Below, piece after piece: positions 1,390 through 15,183 of a DNA stretch of 64,000 nt. A model generated the notes under the pieces. The model was not told where the DNA came from, ran no database searches, and saw nothing but the letters and a program-made list of their open reading frames with translations. This DNA is from Rosettibacter firmus. GTDB lineage: Bacteria; Bacteroidota; Ignavibacteria; Ignavibacteriales; Melioribacteraceae. The position numbers and the translations under genes were made by a program. Location of the stretch: positions 620,001 through 684,000 of the forward strand of contig NZ_JAYKGJ010000001.1 in NCBI RefSeq assembly GCF_036860695.1. Direction: 5' to 3'. Positions within the stretch are counted from its first letter, which is position 1, and every line of letters begins with the position of its first letter.

Positions 1390-2811
1390 TTAAAAAATAA
1401 ACCACAATCTAGTTACAATAAAACAAACCAGAATTCCCAGCATTATTGGTAGAAATGTTGAAATCAATGTCCATTTCCAGCTATTTGTTTCTTTATAAAT
1501 TGTAAATATTGTTGTAGAACATGGATTATGAAGCAAACTAAATAACATTAAATTAATTCCTGTTAGTGTTGTCCATCCTCCTGTTTTCAAAAGCACTGCA
1601 ACATCTGAGATATTCTCCATTTCAAACATCACTCCAGTTCCCGCTCCCACTCCAGTAATTTTAGTTGTCAACACTGTTAACATTAATATTGTAGGTATTA
1701 CAATTTCATTAGCTGGTATAGCTATTACATATGCAAGAATAATGACTCCATTTAATCCAATAATCATTGCAGCAGGATCAACAAACTTAATAAAGTGTTC
1801 TGCCATACTAACATTATTTATATTAATATTTGCAACAAGCCAGATTACAGCACCAGCAGGTAAAGCAAAAACAACTGCACGCCATAAAACAAAAATTGTT
1901 CTATCAATAAGTGAAGTATATAGAATCTGCAATATCTTTGGTGGGCGATAAGGTGGTAATTCAAGACTAAATGCTGATACTTCCCCCTTTAATACTGTAT
2001 TTGATAAAAGCCATGAAACAACAAGACTCAATATTATTCCCAGAACTGCAATTCCCAGAACTGCAGCTGCAGAAATAAAACCAGCCAAATATGGTGGAGC
2101 TAAACTACCAATAAAAATTGTAGCTATTAAAATTTGTGTAGGCCATCTTCCATTACATATAGAAAAATTATTTGTTATTATTGCTATTAATCTTTCACGC
2201 GGGCTATCGATAATTCTTGCAGCAATAACACCAGCAGCATTACAACCAAAACCCATACTCATTGTTAATGCTTGTTTACCATGTGCACCTACTTTTTTAT
2301 AAATGCTATCCATATTAAATGCAACTCTTGGTAAATATCCAAAATCTTCGAGTAATGTAAATAATGGGAAAAATATAGCCATTGGTGGTAACATAACACT
2401 AACAACCCATGCCATTGAAAGATAAGCTCCATCAATCAATACTCCTTTTAACCACCACGGGAAATGTAATGCGAGTGCGGTCTCTCCTAAAACAGGATGT
2501 AACTTATCAATCAAAATTGAAGATAAAAAACTCGAAGGATAATTAGCTCCTACTATAGTTAACCAGAATACCAAAGAAAGGAGTAATAACATTATAGGTA
2601 AACCAGTCCATTTATTAGTAACTATTTTATCTATAAAACGATCAAAATCAAATTTTTGGTTTTTCTCTAATTTAAAAACAACTTCTTGAGTAATTTCTTC
2701 AGCATTTTTATAAATTGATTTAATAATTAAATCGTGAACACCTTCCCCTATTTCCCATCTTAATTTTTCTGCAGTTTCAATCAGGTTTTCTCTATCGATA
2801 TTATTTTCCAT
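1390..2811 (-). CDS. feoB: Ferrous iron transporter FeoB, membrane part as separate protein
   Basis: This 473-residue protein corresponds to the C-terminal permease half of FeoB, which moves Fe2+ across the inner membrane. Residues 1-65 are a hydrophilic helical lead-in and about 70 onward are hydrophobic segments. The first Gate/nucleoside-recognition core contains GFGCNAAG (Cys190) followed by SPRERL and SICNGRWP (Cys219), matching the FeoB GCN..SPR..C.R.P pattern. There is no GTPase domain; that is encoded 10 bases upstream as its own protein. A good AGGA ribosome site precedes the ATG, so this looks like a real second cistron and not a frameshifted single gene. It is the last gene of the iron operon. 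Split FeoB is unusual relative to the standard fused form. Confidence 0.9.
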   Translation of the reverse strand: MENNIDRENLIETAEKLRWEIGEGVHDLIIKSIYKNAEEITQEVVFKLEKNQKFDFDRFIDKIVTNKWTGLPIMLLLLSLVFWLTIVGANYPSSFLSSILIDKLHPVLGETALALHFPWWLKGVLIDGAYLSMAWVVSVMLPPMAIFFPLFTLLEDFGYLPRVAFNMDSIYKKVGAHGKQALTMSMGFGCNAAGVIAARIIDSPRERLIAIITNNFSICNGRWPTQILIATIFIGSLAPPYLAGFISAAAVLGIAVLGIILSLVVSWLLSNTVLKGEVSAFSLELPPYRPPKILQILYTSLIDRTIFVLWRAVVFALPAGAVIWLVANININNVSMAEHFIKFVDPAAMIIGLNGVIILAYVIAIPANEIVIPTILMLTVLTTKITGVGAGTGVMFEMENISDVAVLLKTGGWTTLTGINLMLFSLLHNPCSTTIFTIYKETNSWKWTLISTFLPIMLGILVCFIVTRLWFIF

Positions 2812-2821
2812 AACCAGTATC

Positions 2822-3610
2822 CTATTTATTATTTGATAATTTTAATGACCCAATTTCACCTGAACGAATAGCATCAATAATTCTTTGATCCCCTTCGAGT
2901 AAACGTAAGGCAATCCATCTTGTATTATTTAAATCAGGAAAAATTTTCTGGATTTTTTTATCAAGCTCTTCAACTGCAAACGCTAATTCTTTGAAGTCTT
3001 CGGTAACTCTGAATGGCTGACATTTAAAACTTCCAGTTGCAACTTCATATACTGCTTTTAATAATTCTTGAATTCCAATTTTTTCTCTTGCAGCTGTTGG
3101 AACAACAGGGATTCCTAATTTCTGTGAAAGTAATTTATCATTGATTAATATTTTATGCCTTTTTGCTTCGTCAATAAGATTCAAACATAAAACAGCTCTA
3201 TCGGTAATTTCAAGAATTTGAAGTACAAGATTTAGATTTCTTTCCAGTCTTGTTGAATCGACTACAATTATAGTTACATCAGGTTTGCCAAACAATATAA
3301 AATCCCGAGCAATTTCTTCATCAACACTTGTAGAAAGTAAAGAATACGTTCCAGGTAAATCGACTATTTTGAATCTCTTATTGTTATAAATAAAACCACC
3401 TTCTGTTCTACCAACAGTTTTACCAGGCCAGTTACCTGTATGTTGTTTAAGTCCAGTAAGACTATTAAAAACAGTACTTTTGCCAGTATTAGGATTCCCG
3501 GCTAAAGCAACAACAAAGTCATAATCTGTCATATCAATTCCGAGTCTTACAAGATGATTCAGATTATGAACAGGTTGGTTTTCACTATTTTGATTTACAT
3601 TATTTTTCAT
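2822..3610 (-). CDS. feoB: FeoB N-terminal GTPase domain as separate protein
   Basis: This 262-residue protein is the cytosolic G-protein half of FeoB, which gates ferrous iron uptake. The G motifs are visible: G1 GNPNTGKST (residues 38-46), the switch-I segment NWPGKTVG, G3 DLPGTYS, G4 NLID and a G5-like PTAARE. A GDI-like helical region with [11 protein letters not shown] follows, and the protein stops before any membrane segment. About 30 residues precede the usual FeoB start. The chosen ATG makes a 4-base ATGA overlap with the upstream DtxR-FeoA gene, which supports it; Met27 is an alternative. The permease half is encoded by the next gene, so the two must assemble in trans (inference). 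Confidence 0.9.
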
Positions 3611-4614
3611 TTTATTTCTTTAACAAATATGTTTTCAGCCTGATTTTTTCTGAGAGCTATTAATGTTCCTCTTACTTCGTATGCTACTGGTTCTTTTCCA
3701 ATACTTTCTAACACTGGTTTTATTTTTGTGCCCGGCACTATACCCAAATCAAGCAGTCTTCTTCTTTGTTCTCCACGCAGAGCTTTAGATAAATAGTTAA
3801 CCTCTGCAATCTCTCCTGTTTTTAATGAAGAAAGAGGTTTTACATTTATTTTCGAGTAATTACTTTCTTCTATCTCTTTGACGCTTATATTTTTTGCTAC
3901 TTCTGTAGATAACTTAATTTCTCTTCCTTCTACTTCAATAATAATTTCATCTTTGAATTTTTTAATAATCTTCAATTTCATATCTGGATAAATCTTATGC
4001 GAATTAATCACTGAAAAAATTTCATCTGGTTCATCTTCTATGTGCAATATTTGAGCATATTTCCCTTCATCTAATTCATCAAGGAATATTTGTTTCCTGA
4101 AGTGAATATTTCCCTTTTCATTTGGTATTGGATCGCCATGAGGATCTAATAATGGATTACCAAGTTCAATGGAAATTTTATTTGCATCTTCAATATCAAT
4201 TTCATGCTCTTTTTCTTCTGCTATTCGATGCCATTCAGTTTCTTTTATATTTGTTTTTTCAGCCAGATATCTTTCTAATAATCTATGTATACGAACTATC
4301 TTTAGAGCATTTTCTCTTCCCAAATCTGTTAATCGAACTATATTATTTTGCTCAGTCACAAGACCTAATTTTTCTAATTTATATATCAGCTGTCTGGCTG
4401 TCTCTTCATTAATTAATAAGGTTTCTTTTAAACTATCAATTGTACATTCGCTTAGTTTAAATTCACAATCAAACATGTACTTAAGAGCATCTTCAAATAA
4501 TACTTTCTCTCTATACTTCTTCATATCATTTAATTTTGAGAGATATTTTTTTAACATAAAAAAAGCAATAATCAGAACAAGTATTCCAGATAAAAAAATC
4601 AGATTCATTTTCAC
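3607..4614 (-). CDS. Membrane-anchored DtxR-like regulator fused to FeoA-like domains
   Basis: The domain order over 335 residues is unusual. There is one N-terminal membrane segment (about residues 4-22) and a winged-helix DtxR/MntR-type DNA-binding domain (about 38-105). A metal-binding/dimerisation region follows, with His110, His129, Glu133 and His137 spaced as in the family, and the DPHGDPIP motif at 158-165. Two SH3-like FeoA-type domains follow (about 175-250 and 257-335); the second has the FeoA pattern [17 protein letters not shown]. It overlaps both operon neighbours by 4 bases. It may sense iron and act on FeoB at the membrane, on DNA, or on both (inference). A purely structural FeoA role is an alternative for the C-terminal domain. 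Confidence 0.82.
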
Positions 4615-5282
4615 CTCGCCTTCTTAACTGGTTTAACCATTATATTTCTTGCCACTTTATCACTGATCGTAACTGTCTTGTTTGAAAACTTAACGATTAA
4701 AGACTTATCATACGATACTATATCGGAAACCTCAAATGGTACATTTATAAAAAGTCCTATTTTCGATAGATATTTTATAAGTCGTTCATCAGTATCATCA
4801 ACTTGTGATAATTCATAAATATTACCAACTTCACATTGATTCATACAAATTAATTTTGGAAGCTTTGGTAATGTTCCATCCTTTTTAGGAATAGGATGAC
4901 CATGTGGATCTATTTCTGGATAACCCAAGTATTCATCAATTTTATCAATTAAAGAATCAGAAGTATTGTGTTCGAGTAGTTCTGCTTCTTTATGTACTTC
5001 ACTCCAGGGTATTTTTAATACCTCTAATAAAAATGACTCCCATAATCTATGTTTTCTGACAACTTTTAATGCTGCTTTTTTACCCTCTTTTGTTAGTTGC
5101 ATTCCTTTGTATTTAGTATATGTAATCAAACCTTCTTTAGCTAATTTTTTTGCCATTCCGCTAATAGCAGAATTTGTAATTGATAATCTTTTAGCAATTC
5201 TTGAGGTAGCAGCACCAGTATTTTTATCTATGGTATGTATATAAATAAGTTTCAAATAGTTTTCTTTTGAAATTGTAGTCAT
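4611..5282 (-). CDS. DtxR/MntR-family metal-dependent transcriptional regulator
   Basis: This is a soluble 223-residue regulator of the DtxR family, which represses metal uptake genes when loaded with Fe2+ or Mn2+. It has an N-terminal winged helix (about 5-65, with recognition helix around TNSAISGMAKKL), metal-ligand candidates His78, Glu82, His97 and His105, the family motif DPHGHPIP (125-132), and a C-terminal SH3-like domain (about 150-220). It is the first gene of the iron operon and overlaps the next by ATGA. A perfect palindrome 25 bases upstream of its start codon is a likely autoregulatory operator. Whether it responds to iron or manganese cannot be decided here; FeoB downstream favours iron. 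Confidence 0.9.
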   Translation of the reverse strand: MTTISKENYLKLIYIHTIDKNTGAATSRIAKRLSITNSAISGMAKKLAKEGLITYTKYKGMQLTKEGKKAALKVVRKHRLWESFLLEVLKIPWSEVHKEAELLEHNTSDSLIDKIDEYLGYPEIDPHGHPIPKKDGTLPKLPKLICMNQCEVGNIYELSQVDDTDERLIKYLSKIGLFINVPFEVSDIVSYDKSLIVKFSNKTVTISDKVARNIMVKPVKKAR

Positions 5283-6869: not shown

Positions 6870-7628
6870 ATGCGTACAAAAGTAGTTGCCGGTAACTGGA
6901 AAATGAATAATGATATTAATTCTTCAGTTACACTTATTAATGAAATTAAAAAGGGCTTAAATCAAAAAAATATTAATGTTAAAGTTATAATCTGCCCTCC
7001 TTTTACTTCACTTGAAACAGCTTATGCTTTAATTAAGGAGACTCCTATAAAATTAGGAGCACAAAATATGTATTTTGAAAAAAGCGGTGCTTTTACTGGT
7101 GAAATTTCACCTTTAATGTTAAAAAGCGTTGGTTGTGAATATGTAATTTTAGGACATTCCGAACGAAGAACCATTTTTATGGAGTCGAATCAATTAATTA
7201 ATAAAAAAATTAAAGCAGCTATATCAAATGGATTAAATCCTATCTTTTGTATTGGTGAAACTCTTGAAGAAAGAGAAGCAGGAAAAACATTTAATGTTGT
7301 GGAAACTCAAATTCGTGAAGGTTTAGCCAATTTATCTGAGCAAGAACTTTCAAACCTAATTATTGCATACGAACCTGTCTGGGCTATAGGAACAGGTAGA
7401 AATGCTACCCCCGAACAAGCAGAAGAAGTTCATAAGTTTATTAGAGATTTAATTGCAAATCTTTATTCAAAAGAATTTGCTGAAAAGTTAATTATTCAAT
7501 ATGGCGGCAGTGTAAAACCAGAAAACTCAAAAGATTTAATGTCGCAACCGGATATTGATGGTGCTCTGGTGGGAGGAGCCTGTTTGAATGCTGAATCTTT
7601 TATTAAAATTATAGAGTCCGCTCAATAG
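6870..7628 (+). CDS. tpiA: Triosephosphate isomerase
   Basis: This enzyme interconverts dihydroxyacetone phosphate and glyceraldehyde 3-phosphate in glycolysis. All catalytic features are present in the 252 residues: Lys11 in NWKMN, His96 in ILGHSERR, Glu168 in AYEPVWAIGTG, and the phosphate-binding YGGSVKPEN loop near the C-terminus. Length is standard. It follows nfu by 36 bases and is the last gene of the unit: its TAG stop lies inside the stem-loop of the downstream terminator. Confidence 0.98.
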   Translation: MRTKVVAGNWKMNNDINSSVTLINEIKKGLNQKNINVKVIICPPFTSLETAYALIKETPIKLGAQNMYFEKSGAFTGEISPLMLKSVGCEYVILGHSERRTIFMESNQLINKKIKAAISNGLNPIFCIGETLEEREAGKTFNVVETQIREGLANLSEQELSNLIIAYEPVWAIGTGRNATPEQAEEVHKFIRDLIANLYSKEFAEKLIIQYGGSVKPENSKDLMSQPDIDGALVGGACLNAESFIKIIESAQ

Positions 7629-7639
7629 CGGACTTTTTT
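7615..7639 (+). terminator. Rho-independent terminator overlapping the tpiA stop
   Basis: A perfect 8-base stem AGTCCGCT / AGCGGACT with a CAAT loop is followed directly by five further T. The tpiA stop codon (7626-7628) sits across the loop and the 3' arm, so a terminating ribosome could compete with hairpin folding. Confidence 0.9.
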
Positions 7640-7654: not shown

Positions 7655-7685
7655 TTGATAAGCCCTCTCATTTTTTATATATTTG
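7655..7685 (+). promoter_or_regulatory. Candidate Bacteroidetes-type promoter before the GH2-like gene
   Basis: TTG at 7655-7657 is followed after 20 bases by TATATTTG at 7678-7685, matching the TTG-N(17-23)-TAnnTTTG promoter described for Bacteroidetes. It lies between the tpiA terminator and the start at 7715, where a promoter is expected. In AT-rich DNA such matches arise by chance. Confidence 0.4.
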
Positions 7686-7714: not shown

Positions 7715-10264
7715 ATGAATTTAAAACCCAAATTTTTATTCTTTATCTTAATCTTTCTTTTTTACTCAAATTTAATCTCAGAAATTAAGATTAAATCTCT
7801 TGTTTTTAATTCAATTGATGATACCTGCTATTTTGAACCTTCCACTAGAAAAATTATTTTATTTAATCAGAACTGGAAAGTTTACGAAGAAGATAATCCA
7901 GAAAAAAAAATTAATACTTCACTCCCCTGTTCTTTTGAAGGTGCAACTACATTAATTTTTGAAAAATATTTTTACATTTCTAAAAACGAGTACCAAAATA
8001 ATGTCATAAAACTATGCTTTTTAGGAATTAACAACTCTGTTGAAATAAGCTTCAATAAATACAATATATTTAGAAAATACGGATCAGAAATCCCCTTCGA
8101 AATCGAAATTCCTAAAGACATTATAAAACCAGATTCTAAAAATAAAATAACACTAAAAGTTACTTTTGACTATGATAATTCTACAACTATTCCATTAAAA
8201 TCAGGTTATTTATTACCACGAACATCAGCAGGAATTTTAAGGAGTGTCTATTTAAAATTTATTCCCAATACTTTTATTGATGAATCTAATTTTTATTTCT
8301 CATTTCCTGAAAAACAAAATTATGCATTTGTTACATTTGAATCGATTATTAAAAATTATGATTTACTCAAAAAACAATCTGAAAACATCGAAGACTTACA
8401 TATTGAAATTAATGTACAACCAAAAAACTTTTTAGGAAATTCACAAAATTTTGTGTTTACTTTAAATGATAATAAAGAAATAAAAAGGAAATTTTATTTC
8501 ACAATACAAAATCCTGTTCTCTGGTCTCCCGAAACTCCTAATCTTTATATCTTTAAGGTAAGTTTATATTCAGGTAATCAGCTAATTGACGAAATTACAC
8601 AAGAAACAGGAATTTTTAATTTCAAAAGCGACAATACTTTGTTGCTGAATAATCAACCATTTTCATTTAAAGGAACAACTTATTACTTAGATGAAAGCAT
8701 TTATACAAAAACACCTTTGCAAGATAGAATTATAAACGATTTATTGTTAATAAAAAAGAGTGGTTTCAATTCTGTTAGATTTGCTAAGTCATATCCCAAT
8801 CCTTTTGCATTAAAATTTTGTCAGCAAATTGGACTATTTGCTTTAATCGAATTACCACTTAATTCAGCTCCAGAAGAAATATTACTTGATAATGAATTTC
8901 AAATAAGAGCACAAAACAAATTAAAAGAGTTAATTCATCAATATAGAAATTACTCCAATGCAATTTTAATTGGTTTAGGAAGTTCTTACCTGGCAGATTC
9001 TTATGTAACACAAAGGTTTATTAAAAAACTATTGAACAATATTGATAAAAGTATTTTTACTTATGCTTCTTTTGTTGGAATTCCTGGTTATAATTTTGCA
9101 GACTTAAATTTTTATGGACTGGAATTATATTCTTATCCAGTTGAAAAACTTGAAATGATTATCGATAGAGTAAATAATAATCCTGAAAAATATTTCATTA
9201 GCGAAGTTATCTATCCTAATTATGTTGGTAATTCATCAGGTTATCTCATAAAAAATTCTACAGAAGCACAGGCAAAATACTTTGAACTATTTCTTGAAAA
9301 TATTTCAAACACAAAATTAAGCGGATATTTTATTAATGGTTTATTCAACTATCCAGCCAATATTTATTCATTGTATGGAGGATACAATGAATATTATAAT
9401 TTCGGACTTTTACACAATAGAAATAATTTAAATTCCATCTCATTTCGTTTAGTTGAATCAATACAAAACAATAAACAAAAAGTTACTATTCCAATAGGTA
9501 TTGGTAAAAGTGAGAATAAATCATTCTTTATTTTTATTGCACTTGGACTCTCATTAATTTTAGCAATATTAATTAATTCAAGAAAACGCTTTAAAGAAGA
9601 TTGCACAAGAGCATTATTTCGACCTTATAATTTTTTTGCAGACTTAAGAGATCATAGAATTCTTTCAAGCTTATACACAATCATTTTAATGTTCATTGTT
9701 GCTGGTTCAATTTCTTTACTTTTTACAATAATTTTATACTATCTAAGATCAAACATACTTTTAGAAAAAATTTTATTAGCTTTTGGTAACAGTTGGTTAA
9801 TTAACTCTATCAGTTATCTTGCTTGGCATCCTGAGGCTTGTTTCATTTATCTTTTATTACTTTTTTTAATTAAAATTCTTATACTCAGCATAATTATAAA
9901 ATCTGCTAATATTTTCATTAAAACAAAAATTGATTTCCCGAGTATTTTTTATAGTGTTATATGGTCATTCTTCCCTTTAGTATTGATTATACCAGGTGAA
10001 TTAATTCTTTATAGAATATTGCTATTAAACAATTTTAATGCATACATCTTTATATTTATTGTGTTGATTATGTTATGGATAATTCAAAGACTGTTTAAAG
10101 GAATTAGTGTTCTATTCGAAGTTAATTCTGGTAAGGTTTATTTCTATAGCTTTTCATTAATTATAGTTATAGCAGGTATTATTATACTATACTATCAATA
10201 TACAGAATCAACTATTTATTTTATAAAAAATTCAATTAACCAATACGCTCAGATGTTACATTAA
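7715..10264 (+). CDS. GH2-like ectodomain fused to a multi-pass membrane domain, catalytic acid lost
   Basis: The 849 residues begin with a signal peptide (about 1-22). A glycoside hydrolase family 2 layout follows: jelly-roll sugar-binding domain (about 40-195), Ig-like sandwich (about 200-310) and a TIM barrel (about 315-580) with FKGTTYYLDES and GFNSVRFAKSYPNP. In GH2 the acid/base lies in a GNE motif; here the matching strand reads GLGSS (420-424), so Asn-Glu has become Ser-Ser. A Glu is kept at the nucleophile position (Glu497 in ISEVIYP), about 73 residues later, as expected. From about residue 600 there are six or so hydrophobic segments, loosely Yip1-like. Probably a carbohydrate-binding or sensing membrane protein and not an active beta-galactosidase (inference). 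It precedes smc by 12 bases. Confidence 0.75.
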   Translation: MNLKPKFLFFILIFLFYSNLISEIKIKSLVFNSIDDTCYFEPSTRKIILFNQNWKVYEEDNPEKKINTSLPCSFEGATTLIFEKYFYISKNEYQNNVIKLCFLGINNSVEISFNKYNIFRKYGSEIPFEIEIPKDIIKPDSKNKITLKVTFDYDNSTTIPLKSGYLLPRTSAGILRSVYLKFIPNTFIDESNFYFSFPEKQNYAFVTFESIIKNYDLLKKQSENIEDLHIEINVQPKNFLGNSQNFVFTLNDNKEIKRKFYFTIQNPVLWSPETPNLYIFKVSLYSGNQLIDEITQETGIFNFKSDNTLLLNNQPFSFKGTTYYLDESIYTKTPLQDRIINDLLLIKKSGFNSVRFAKSYPNPFALKFCQQIGLFALIELPLNSAPEEILLDNEFQIRAQNKLKELIHQYRNYSNAILIGLGSSYLADSYVTQRFIKKLLNNIDKSIFTYASFVGIPGYNFADLNFYGLELYSYPVEKLEMIIDRVNNNPEKYFISEVIYPNYVGNSSGYLIKNSTEAQAKYFELFLENISNTKLSGYFINGLFNYPANIYSLYGGYNEYYNFGLLHNRNNLNSISFRLVESIQNNKQKVTIPIGIGKSENKSFFIFIALGLSLILAILINSRKRFKEDCTRALFRPYNFFADLRDHRILSSLYTIILMFIVAGSISLLFTIILYYLRSNILLEKILLAFGNSWLINSISYLAWHPEACFIYLLLLFLIKILILSIIIKSANIFIKTKIDFPSIFYSVIWSFFPLVLIIPGELILYRILLLNNFNAYIFIFIVLIMLWIIQRLFKGISVLFEVNSGKVYFYSFSLIIVIAGIIILYYQYTESTIYFIKNSINQYAQMLH

Positions 10265-10276: not shown

Positions 10277-13200
10277 TTGTTCCTATCAAAATTAGAAATA
10301 TTTGGCTTTAAGTCATTTGCAAATAGAACAGTTATAAACTTTAATCGTGGAATTACTGGAATAGTTGGACCTAATGGTTGTGGTAAAACTAATATAGTTG
10401 ATGCTATTCGATGGGTATTGGGAGAACAAAAAACCACAACGTTACGAAGTGATAAAATGGAAAATGTAATTTTTAACGGGACGAGAGAAAAAAAACCAAT
10501 GGGTATGGCTGAAGTTTCTCTTACTCTGGTTAACGATAAAGGTATTCTGCCATCTGAATATTCTGAAATTACTATAACAAGAAGAATATTTCGTTCTGGT
10601 GAAAGTGAATATCTTCTGAATAAAAATATTTGTCGTCTCAAAGATATTACAAATCTATTTATGGATACTGGCATTGGGACTAATGCTTATTCAGTCATTG
10701 AATTAAAAATGATCGAAACCATTTTAAGTAGCAAAGCTGATGAGAGAAGAAAATTATTTGAAGAAGCAGCAGGTGTAAACAAATACAAATTAAGAAGAAG
10801 ATTATCATTAAAAAAACTGGATGATATAAAAGCCGATTTAACACGTGTTAATGATATTGTCTCCGAAGTTGAAAAAAATGTAAGATCACTGGAACGACAG
10901 GCTAAACGAGCAGATCAATTTACTCAGATTCAATCAGTTTTAAGAGATAAAGAATTAAATTTAGCTGAAAGAGAGTTTGCACTCTTTCACGAAAAAAAAC
11001 AAAATCTTATAAATGAAATATCTTCCTTAATATCGCAAAAAGAAGAAATTGATAAAGAAATAAGAACAATTGAAAATGAATTAATAGTTTATCGCAATCA
11101 GATTAATTCAATAGAATCTGAATTACATAAAAAAAGAGTTGAAATTTCTGAGGTTTCCAATCAACAATATCAATTGCAAAAATCATTTTCTGTTTCAGAA
11201 GAAAAATTGAACTCGCTTTCAAATAATAAAATTAGAATAGAACAAGAAATCGAAGAGCTTAAAGAAAACATTGAAAAATATAAAACAGCTAATGAACAAT
11301 CCAAGCTCGAGTTAGTAGAATTCGAAAAGAATCTTGAAACAAAAAAACTGGATGTTAATAATTATGAGCAAATAATTTCACAAAAAAAGATTTTACTTGA
11401 TGAAAAAAGACAGGCACTAAAACAACTTAACCAGGAAAGATTTTCTCTTATTAAAGAAATTTCTATTAAGGAAAATCTTGTAAACACATTAAATAAAGAA
11501 ATAAATAACTACAACGAAAGAATCGAAAAACTCAATAATAAAATTCTTAATATCACAAATAGAATTGCAAAAACAGTTGGATTCATAGAAGAACTATCAA
11601 ACGAAAAAGCTGAAGCAGAAAATAGATTAAATCAAACAGGTTTTCAACTTGCACAAAACCAGAAAGAAAAAGAAAGATTAGAAAAAGAACTTAATGAACT
11701 AAAAGAAAAAGAAATTGAACAAAAAACATTTTTGTTTAGCTTAAAAGAAAAAATTAACTTCTTACAAACACTCATAACAAATCTCGAAGGACTTTCGAGT
11801 GGAACAAAAGTTTTACTCGAAAGCAAAAACTGGTCTGATAAAGAAAAAAACATTTTCGCCGATGCTGGCAATACACAGGAAAAATATCGATTTGCACTCG
11901 AAGCTGCACTTAAAACAGCACTAAATAATTTATTAATTAATGAAATTACTGATTTACAAAACGCTGTAGAATTTCTAAAGAATAACGAACTTGGCAAGGC
12001 ATCTTTTATTTTATTAAAAAGTGATTTTAATAAGAAATTAACTTTACTCGATAGAATAAACAAATACAATCTGAAGAAAAAAATAAAAAAGCTCGAAAAA
12101 GAAAATTCATTTATTGGTTGGGCTAACAATTTTGTGGAAACTTCAGATGAATGGAAATATTTCTTTGAACAACTTCTCTCTTCTTTTGCAATAATTAGTG
12201 ATTTTAAAAATGCTATTACACTTTTCAAGAAATATCCTGACTTCAATTTTGTAACATTAGATGGCGATTTAATACTAAATAATGGCATAATAGAAGCAGG
12301 ATCTCTCCCTAAAGAAGATGAAACAATATTTGGAAGAAAACAATTACTTGAAAATCTTAAAAAAGAATTTCCCGTTCACGAAACCAATCTCGAGTCTTTA
12401 AAAAAAGAAATTTCCACATTAGAAGAAAAAATTGCTGCAATTGATCTTAAAAATTTAAGTGATAGAGAAAAATTAATTGCAAATGATATTTCTAACATCG
12501 AAAAACAAATTTCTCAACTTGAATATGAAAAGAAAAAATCTGATGAAGAAATTGATCTGGCTCGAAAGGAAATTCAGGAATTAGCAGAAAAATCAAATGA
12601 ACTTGATAATCAACTTGAAGAAGAAAAAAAATCATTAAATATTCTTTACGATAAACGCAATGAAATTGATAATCAAATAATTGCACACGAAAAAGAACTT
12701 CAAACTTTCGAAGAAGAATATTCTTCTATACTTAATTTGTTTAACGAGCACAAACTTGAATTAGAAAGACTGAATGGTAGAATTAAAAATATATTAAACA
12801 CAATTAATCATAATGAAAATGAAATCACCAATACTCTTAAAGGAATAGAAAAAAGACAGAACGATTTAATAAATAATAAATCAGAAAGTGAAACACTAAA
12901 AAATACTCTGGAGAGTTTAAAAACTGAACTCGAAAATGTATTGCAACTTAAAAATAGACTTGAAGAAGAAGAAACAAAAATTGAAACTAACTTATCGAGT
13001 TTAAAAAACGAAGCTTCAAAATATGAAAATCAATTAAGAGAACTTAGAAATAAAAGACAGGAAGTTTCCGACAAAATTCATTCACTTGAAATAAAAGAAA
13101 ATGAAATAAATTATAAAATCGAAAGTATTCAACAACATATAAAAGAAAATTATTCAATTGATCTTGAATTAAAACAATTTGATGATTTACAAACTTTCAA

Positions 13201-13870
13201 TTACGAAGAAACTTCTCAAGAAGTTAATAGACTAAAAGAAAAACTAAAAAGTCTTGGTCCTGTAAATTTACTTGCTTATTCAGAATATGAAGAAGAGAAA
13301 AAGCGACTTGATTTCTTACATCAACAACGAGACGATCTGATTGAATCCGAAAAAGATTTAATTAAAACAATTCACGAAATAAATGAAACTGCACAAAAAC
13401 TATTTCTTGATACTTTTGAGCAAATCAGAAAAAATTTCATAAAAATCTTTCAAACACTTTTTAATCCTGGAGACGAAGCTGACTTAACACTCGAAGAAAA
13501 TGTTGATCCTCTGGAAGCTAAAATTGAAATAATAGCTAAACCAAAAGGAAAAAGACCGACTTCAATTGAATTATTATCTGGAGGAGAAAAAACTTTAACA
13601 GCAACTGCTCTTTTATTTGCTATTTATCTTGTTAAACCAAGTCCATTCTGTATTCTTGATGAAGTTGATGCTCCTTTAGATGATGCAAATATTGATAGAT
13701 TTACTAAACTTCTAAAAGAATTTAGCAAAGACACACAATTTATCATAGTAACACATAACAAAAGAACTATGGAAGCTGCAGAAACAATGTACGGTGTAAC
13801 AATGCAGGAAGAAGGAATTTCAAAACTTGTAGGTGTAAGATTCGAAGAAATACCAGAATATCAGGATTAA
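10277..13870 (+). CDS. smc: Chromosome segregation protein SMC
   Basis: SMC is the ATPase core of the bacterial condensin that organises and segregates chromosomes. The 1197 residues show the N-terminal FKSFANRT and Walker A GPNGCGKT (31-38). Two very long coiled coils surround a hinge (about 510-680). The C-terminal head has the ABC signature LLSGGEKTLTA and Walker B ILDEVDAPLDD. Length is typical. It starts with TTG behind a strong AAGAGGA site, and the resulting MFLSKLEIFGFKSF is the standard family start. ScpA and ScpB are not in the window. The stop is followed after one base by a HAD phosphatase gene. Confidence 0.98.
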   Translation: MFLSKLEIFGFKSFANRTVINFNRGITGIVGPNGCGKTNIVDAIRWVLGEQKTTTLRSDKMENVIFNGTREKKPMGMAEVSLTLVNDKGILPSEYSEITITRRIFRSGESEYLLNKNICRLKDITNLFMDTGIGTNAYSVIELKMIETILSSKADERRKLFEEAAGVNKYKLRRRLSLKKLDDIKADLTRVNDIVSEVEKNVRSLERQAKRADQFTQIQSVLRDKELNLAEREFALFHEKKQNLINEISSLISQKEEIDKEIRTIENELIVYRNQINSIESELHKKRVEISEVSNQQYQLQKSFSVSEEKLNSLSNNKIRIEQEIEELKENIEKYKTANEQSKLELVEFEKNLETKKLDVNNYEQIISQKKILLDEKRQALKQLNQERFSLIKEISIKENLVNTLNKEINNYNERIEKLNNKILNITNRIAKTVGFIEELSNEKAEAENRLNQTGFQLAQNQKEKERLEKELNELKEKEIEQKTFLFSLKEKINFLQTLITNLEGLSSGTKVLLESKNWSDKEKNIFADAGNTQEKYRFALEAALKTALNNLLINEITDLQNAVEFLKNNELGKASFILLKSDFNKKLTLLDRINKYNLKKKIKKLEKENSFIGWANNFVETSDEWKYFFEQLLSSFAIISDFKNAITLFKKYPDFNFVTLDGDLILNNGIIEAGSLPKEDETIFGRKQLLENLKKEFPVHETNLESLKKEISTLEEKIAAIDLKNLSDREKLIANDISNIEKQISQLEYEKKKSDEEIDLARKEIQELAEKSNELDNQLEEEKKSLNILYDKRNEIDNQIIAHEKELQTFEEEYSSILNLFNEHKLELERLNGRIKNILNTINHNENEITNTLKGIEKRQNDLINNKSESETLKNTLESLKTELENVLQLKNRLEEEETKIETNLSSLKNEASKYENQLRELRNKRQEVSDKIHSLEIKENEINYKIESIQQHIKENYSIDLELKQFDDLQTFNYEETSQEVNRLKEKLKSLGPVNLLAYSEYEEEKKRLDFLHQQRDDLIESEKDLIKTIHEINETAQKLFLDTFEQIRKNFIKIFQTLFNPGDEADLTLEENVDPLEAKIEIIAKPKGKRPTSIELLSGGEKTLTATALLFAIYLVKPSPFCILDEVDAPLDDANIDRFTKLLKEFSKDTQFIIVTHNKRTMEAAETMYGVTMQEEGISKLVGVRFEEIPEYQD

Positions 13871-14598: not shown

Positions 14599-15183
14599 TT
14601 GGCAGAAATAGCAAAAAAAATTTTTAAGTATCGTAGTTATACGCCCATACCATTTTTGATTTTAATGGTAATTTTTCAAAAGGCTACATTAATAAGTTTA
14701 ATTACAGGTTTTATCTTTGTTCTTATTGGCGAATTTTTCCGTCTATGGGGTGTATCTTATGCAGGTAGCGAAACCAGAACTACTGGACAGGTAGGCGGAA
14801 CTTTTTTAGTTGTTTCAGGTCCATATGCTTACGTTCGTAATCCATTATACTTTGGTAATATTTTAATTTATACTGGAATTGGTGTAATGTCTATGGCTTT
14901 ATATCCATACTTGCTTATAATTGCAATACTGTTTTTCTTATGGCAATATCAAACAATTATTAAAGAAGAAGAAGCTTTCTTACAAAAAAAATTTGGCAAG
15001 CAATACGAACATTATTTTAATTCTGTTCCAAGATGGATTCCTACTTTTACTAAATATAAAAATCCAGAAATTGAACAACCACCTTTTAATATTAAAGCTG
15101 GTTTAAAATCAGAGCGAAGAACATTACAGGCAATTTCTTTTACTATATTACTATTAATCATACTTTTTGTGGTTACAAATTGA
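14599..15183 (+). CDS. Isoprenylcysteine methyltransferase-like (ICMT/PEMT family) membrane protein
   Basis: This 194-residue membrane protein has about four or five hydrophobic segments and the conserved C-terminal SAM-binding signature of the family: GPYAYVRNPLYFGN, later EEAFLQKKFGKQYEHY. Family members methylate prenylcysteines, phospholipids or other membrane substrates; the bacterial substrate is generally unknown. It starts with TTG behind AAGG (14587-14590) and lies 4 bases after the HAD gene. It overlaps lpxB in a TTGA junction, so it is translationally coupled to lipid A synthesis. A role in envelope lipid modification is a guess from context. Confidence 0.82.
   Translation: MAEIAKKIFKYRSYTPIPFLILMVIFQKATLISLITGFIFVLIGEFFRLWGVSYAGSETRTTGQVGGTFLVVSGPYAYVRNPLYFGNILIYTGIGVMSMALYPYLLIIAILFFLWQYQTIIKEEEAFLQKKFGKQYEHYFNSVPRWIPTFTKYKNPEIEQPPFNIKAGLKSERRTLQAISFTILLLIILFVVTN

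Follow-up and report, generated by a model that had tools for sequence, protein, structure and literature searches.

The window, i.e., the whole stretch of 64,000 nucleotides that was analysed, contains upstream of smc a gene of one open frame with an ATG start, which encodes a protein of 849 amino acids. Features of the locus are collected in Table 1. The following gene encodes the sole full-length SMC of the genome, and ScpA is encoded elsewhere in the genome. The TTG start of smc is preceded by AGAGGAAAG and lies 12 bp past the stop codon of the upstream gene; the two genes are probably co-transcribed. Elsewhere in the window, an iron-uptake cluster with a split FeoB occupies 1390-5282 of the reverse strand. 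It comprises a GTPase protein (FeoB_N, 2822-3610) and a permease (Gate/FeoB_C, 1390-2811), and is preceded by two DtxR-like repressor-type proteins, both with a FeoA domain.

Table 1. Features of the gene upstream of smc and of its surroundings (positions in the window)
Feature	Position	Strand	Basis
Whole gene: putative GH2-derived pseudo-glycosidase with six-TM, Yip1-like membrane domain, 849 aa	7715..10264	+	
Signal peptide / N-terminal hydrophobic segment, residues 1-22	7715..7780	+	hydropathy
GH2 N-terminal sugar-binding-like beta-sandwich, ~residues 43-185	7841..8269	+	PF02837 E 9e-6 (below cut-off); model; structure match
GH2 immunoglobulin-like domain, ~residues 186-302	8270..8620	+	PF00703 E 6.8e-13
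Degenerate TIM barrel, ~residues 303-590	8621..9484	+	PF02836 E 7e-7; structure match
GLGSS, residues 420-424, replacing G-N-E; Ser424 at acid/base position	8972..8986	+	alignments
Glu497, nucleophile position	9203..9205	+	alignments
Membrane domain, residues 601-849, six TM, distant Yip1 (PF04893) similarity	9515..10261	+	
Juxtamembrane segment, predicted cytosolic, residues 623-651, RKRFKEDCTRALFRPYNFFADLRDHRILS; top conservation in protein	9581..9667	+	
smc, chromosome segregation protein SMC	10277..13870	+	TIGR02168 1028 bits
Terminator-like hairpin with T-run after tpiA, between tpiA and the pseudo-glycosidase gene	7613..7636	+	consensus match only
Promoter-like hexamers TTGATA-17-TATATT upstream of the pseudo-glycosidase gene	7655..7683	+	10/12 matches; regional count not above shuffles

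The ectodomain of the protein belongs to GH2 by its fold. In Pfam, the immunoglobulin-like domain (E 7e-13) and the TIM barrel (E 7e-7) scored above the cut-offs, and the sugar-binding domain fell just below. The nearest solved chains are GH2 enzymes (5t98, LacZ) with E of ~1e-14 to 1e-13. The structure prediction proposed together with the original prediction was carried out with AlphaFold2 using 67 homologues (mean pLDDT 88.9, pTM 0.86). Residues 37-598 of the model matched GH2 structures with a VIA-align Z of ~31 and include the complete three-domain fold of sugar-binding sandwich, Ig-like domain and TIM barrel. At Z 31.6, the rmsd was 3.1 Å over 528 residues for 3cmg and 2.6 Å over 511 residues for 6xxw. 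Searching structures with the whole-protein model returned GH2-type matches only, a search by which the membrane part was barely probed.

The active site departs from this fold. As originally predicted, GLGSS takes the place of the GNE acid/base motif: in the alignment it falls on the NE of LacZ and further GH2 proteins, with SS at 423-424 in place of Asn-Glu. The prediction that the nucleophile-position glutamate is kept about 73 residues further on was equally accurate, as Glu497 lies 73 residues past Ser424. The corresponding spacing in LacZ (E461/E537) is 76. Three other typical residues are replaced in the window protein, namely the His of the RHE/NRHE region by Tyr, the His of the R-x-S/G-H-Y motif by Lys, and the Trp after the nucleophile strand by Asn. 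As a control, five further GH2 proteins encoded by this genome were aligned, and all of them possess NE (NNE, GNE). Four have Glu in the nucleophile column; in the fifth, a LacZ-like protein, the GEYAHAMGNS motif is displaced by an alignment gap at this column. A different acid/base glutamate had been named beforehand as a sign against the pseudo-glycosidase reading. No newly conserved Glu or Asp was found at any substitute position in the homologue alignments. E379 was considered for this role and rejected, since it aligns with a Glu present in intact GH2 proteins too.

The motif survey in homologues gave the same picture. The acid/base position was never Glu in 30/30 aligned homologues of the same order. 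Among 165 full-length homologues, the acid/base Glu was found in 20 and the nucleophile Glu in 88; in the other 77 the latter is not Glu, and S, R, K, G and A are found at this position within the family. Both catalytic residues occur together in only six of the 165, all from one family (L065, L202-L206) that is nested in the tree and also retains the His and Trp residues in the two members checked. The ancestor therefore probably had an intact catalytic site, and the dyad would have decayed several times independently. Retention of the dyad in 6/165 suggests that catalysis was repeatedly dispensable while the fold and the fusion persisted. Together with the lack of a replacement Glu and the intact paralogues of the same genome, the repeated dyad loss gives good support to the predicted pseudo-glycosidase, and the protein is very probably a GH2-derived pseudo-enzyme residing in the membrane. 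The active site appears to have been lost in parallel on many occasions, with the fold preserved. The dyad-keeping proteins (L065, 8353-10938, and L202-L206) combine the full GH2 dyad and His/Trp with the same membrane fusion, and they are possibly still active, envelope-acting enzymes.

The "six or so" membrane segments predicted after the ectodomain proved to be six by hydropathy, at ~600-624, 648-679, 704-737, 741-773, 767-801 and 805-831, and the helices of the AlphaFold model match them. The fusion had been noted as unfamiliar among active GH2 enzymes. It is real and conserved, but the dyad-keeping family has the same fusion, and the arrangement is consequently not diagnostic of inactivity. 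The best-conserved part of the family is the juxtamembrane segment (RRFRE...RPYNFFADIRDQR). The top 25-residue window in the 165 homologues is 625-649, with a mean pairwise identity of 0.68 versus ~0.2-0.35 in the other domains. Its family consensus is RRFRExxxRALxRPYNFFADIRDQR, and the segment carries 8 K/R and 4 D/E. An ectodomain on the outer side and a TM1 spanning 601-622 would place the segment in the cytosol, in agreement with the positive-inside rule.

Matches to Yip1 (PF04893) were obtained at E<=0.01 for 20/32 members (best E 1.2e-9), making a distant kinship of the membrane domain to Yip1 likely. The window protein itself scores 20.6-20.7 bits against the Pfam curated cut-off of 28.6. 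A PDB sequence-profile search with the membrane domain gave chance matches to cytochrome oxidase only (E>0.1). By the acid/base test the protein is thus GH2-derived and no GH2 enzyme, and by Pfam score it is Yip1-like and no Yip1 member. The conservation of the juxtamembrane segment and the retention of the membrane domain alone in one genus (see below) mark this domain as the core of the protein.

Identity to the protein is 59-64% in two congeneric genomes and, over the full length, mostly 33-49% across the order; with such conservation the observation is not due to chance. A homologue was found in 56/58 relatives searched, mostly at full length, with a few of these being ordinary GH2 matches or fragments. 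In Ignavibacteria, 221/245 genomes carry the fusion, nearly always in one copy and in open frames of mostly ~800-970 residues. Full-length copies are also present in other classes of the phylum (L059-L062, L070). An assembly or annotation artefact behind the fusion was rejected, as a single open frame is found in >200 genomes. No relative was detected in the viral contigs searched, and a search of open-licence papers found none on a GH2-Yip1 fusion or an smc-linked GH2 protein. In one single-contig genome (G082; L186, 8801-10057), the membrane domain extends over two frames, which may be a real frameshift or a sequencing error.

The genomic link to smc is conserved. The available sequence was sufficient at 108 homologue loci; in 100 of these the next gene downstream is smc in the same orientation, mostly after a gap of 0-20 bp. 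By a reading of the tree, the eight exceptions form one clade with smc elsewhere in the same genomes, which looks like one separation event. In this clade, L049, L054 and L055 have a divergently transcribed neighbour of ~2,300 residues belonging to one sequence cluster. The scanned copy of it matches SprA (PF14349), a component of type IX secretion/gliding, and L186 contains an ORF of similar size. In 20-kb neighbourhoods, smc was the most constant neighbour (33/41 loci), followed by an MtnX-like HAD phosphatase and lpxB (22/41 each). The genes lpxB and lpxK, a DUF374 protein gene and a lipid A methyltransferase-like gene lie downstream of smc, so that a role in envelope biogenesis is a live alternative. 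Beside lpxB and lpxK, window positions 14599-15183 (+) encode a small membrane methyltransferase (PEMT/ICMT), which resembles the Leptospira lipid A Kdo2 1-phosphate O-methyltransferase LmtA with E 5e-21, far below the cut-off.

In the family f12, seven genomes of one genus encode a product of ~250-360 residues, which is the membrane domain without a GH2 part, and this gene also precedes smc. Two sister genera within f12 possess smc with no detectable homologue, and co-occurrence with smc throughout these lineages does not hold. Several other checked genomes of the phylum likewise have smc and lack the homologue. SMC therefore has no general requirement for this protein. In two otherwise near-complete genomes (G043, G185), neither the pseudo-glycosidase nor a strong match to SMC is present, either by joint loss or by a shared assembly gap.

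With the membrane-domain profile, weak hits were obtained in a different class of this phylum. The proteins of this second class have ~520-580 residues and consist of a signal peptide, a bare TIM barrel and the membrane domain. In hhalign against the Ignavibacteria family, barrel and membrane domain were collinear over 477 columns (probability 99.4%, E 5e-22). Of 146 genomes in this class, 102 gave a match, with roughly one match in four, or more, being weak. Directly upstream of 17/30 second-class loci lies ftsZ; at the other 13, of which two are close to a contig end, the 1.5-kb flank contains no ftsZ. In three longer loci inspected, ftsA precedes ftsZ.

Its recurrent linkage with smc, and the independent one with ftsZ, point to a partner in chromosome segregation or division. 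The leading mechanism, tentatively preferred at somewhat less than even confidence, is a non-catalytic envelope adaptor tied to one of these processes. The ectodomain would be periplasmic, as indicated by the signal peptide and topology, and the old glycosidase fold would only bind an envelope glycan or protein or act as a rigid scaffold. The membrane domain would present the basic RxFRE...RPYNFxADxRDxR segment to the cytosol. This segment could dock a cell-cycle partner such as SMC-ScpAB, ParB/DNA or a divisome protein, and the docking would tie the nucleoid or the machinery of division to the envelope. Cut down to a bare TIM barrel, this module would act with the FtsZ machinery in the second class. 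Against the adaptor, gene adjacency is circumstantial and no proof of a shared process. Lineages with smc but no homologue, the clade in which the two genes lie apart, the lipid A genes of the region and the 13 second-class loci without a flanking ftsZ also count against it. The farther-reaching version is rather doubtful, namely that these inner-membrane pseudo-glycosidases form a family not described before and provide a physical coupling of the envelope to SMC-driven segregation (and to FtsZ-driven division in the second class), their former glycan-cleaving domain now serving as an envelope anchor or sensor.

Instead, the protein may have no relation to SMC and serve in envelope assembly or transport, e.g., as a Yip1-like accessory membrane protein that aids the assembly or regulation of a transporter or of a lipid A/glycan export step. 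We regard this as possible and on balance unlikely. The dead GH2 part would then be a periplasmic docking platform, and smc adjacency an inherited operon structure. The PF04893 matches and the lipid A genes downstream of smc fit such a factor, and so does YknW of Bacillus, the best studied bacterial protein assigned by name to the Yip1 family, which modulates the assembly of an ABC efflux complex (PMC4887032). However, the lipid A genes are linked less consistently than smc, no transporter gene is a constant neighbour, and the smc link outlives the loss of the ectodomain. The original prediction had suggested a carbohydrate sensor, a binding protein or a scaffold. Glycan binding and a sensor function are still conceivable, but the smc/ftsZ linkage, the conserved cytosolic element and the genus without GH2 shift the weight from the glycan to the membrane and cytosolic side. 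In particular, a sensor or receptor that captures a glycan of the envelope or the environment in its dead active-site cleft and passes the signal on via the membrane domain seems improbable. The fold is kept, the pocket-forming R355, E379, P381 and the GY and SxEAQ elements are strongly conserved, and Yip1-like proteins have been put forward as membrane receptors (PMC6682643). Yet the window protein has lost the GH2-typical binding residues (two His, Trp, Asn-Glu) and bears no kinase, phosphatase or regulator domain, and one genus lacks the ectodomain and the second class both beta-sandwich domains.

Catalysis by Glu497 with an unusual acid/base residue is very improbable. Glu497 is retained in most of the order and the L065/L202-L206 proteins keep the whole dyad in the same fusion, but its replacement elsewhere in the family, the loss of the His and Trp positions, the lack of any newly conserved Glu or Asp, and the alignment of E379 with a Glu of intact GH2 proteins all speak against activity. 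That the protein is an ordinary GH2 enzyme and only the alignment is wrong might be argued from the overall fold, but this was rejected as scarcely credible: three separate alignments agree on GSS for the acid/base site, the whole order shares the missing Glu, and the paralogue control shows NE throughout.

The envelope adaptor, as the preferred reading, would bear on the question of how SMC-loaded chromosomes are connected to the envelope, unsettled for the majority of Gram-negative lineages. With its single-copy gene right before smc, or right after ftsZ in the relatives, this core membrane protein is a concrete and testable candidate. The family is also a lead on the function of bacterial Yip1-like domains.

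The window protein can be compared with several known systems. It shares with the GH2 enzymes (LacZ, beta-glucuronidases) the whole three-domain ectodomain fold and the nucleophile-position Glu. Unlike them, it has SS in place of the acid/base NE and substitutions at the active-site His, His and Trp, bears six fused membrane segments, and is encoded in a putative smc operon rather than in a catabolic cluster. With Yip1 (PF04893, e.g. Bacillus YknW), it shares a membrane domain of several spans whose conserved N-terminal segment is predicted to face the cytosol. It differs in its score below the Pfam cut-off, in the six TM with an extra anchor helix, in the large GH2 ectodomain and in that no ABC transporter neighbour was found. 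The second-class homologues resemble it in the collinear barrel and membrane domain, in an equally degenerate barrel and in a putatively cytosolic segment of the same type (RFR..RYF..HGFYR..R[ED]), whereas they lack the beta-sandwich domains and are linked to ftsZ instead of smc. RocS of Streptococcus is a membrane-bound chromosome segregation factor (PMC13042908), with a C-terminal membrane-targeting helix and a DNA/ParB-binding part, and has no GH2 or Yip1-like domain. The presumed likeness to RocS is one of working principle only, with no homology claimed: a membrane-anchored protein that links chromosome and membrane.
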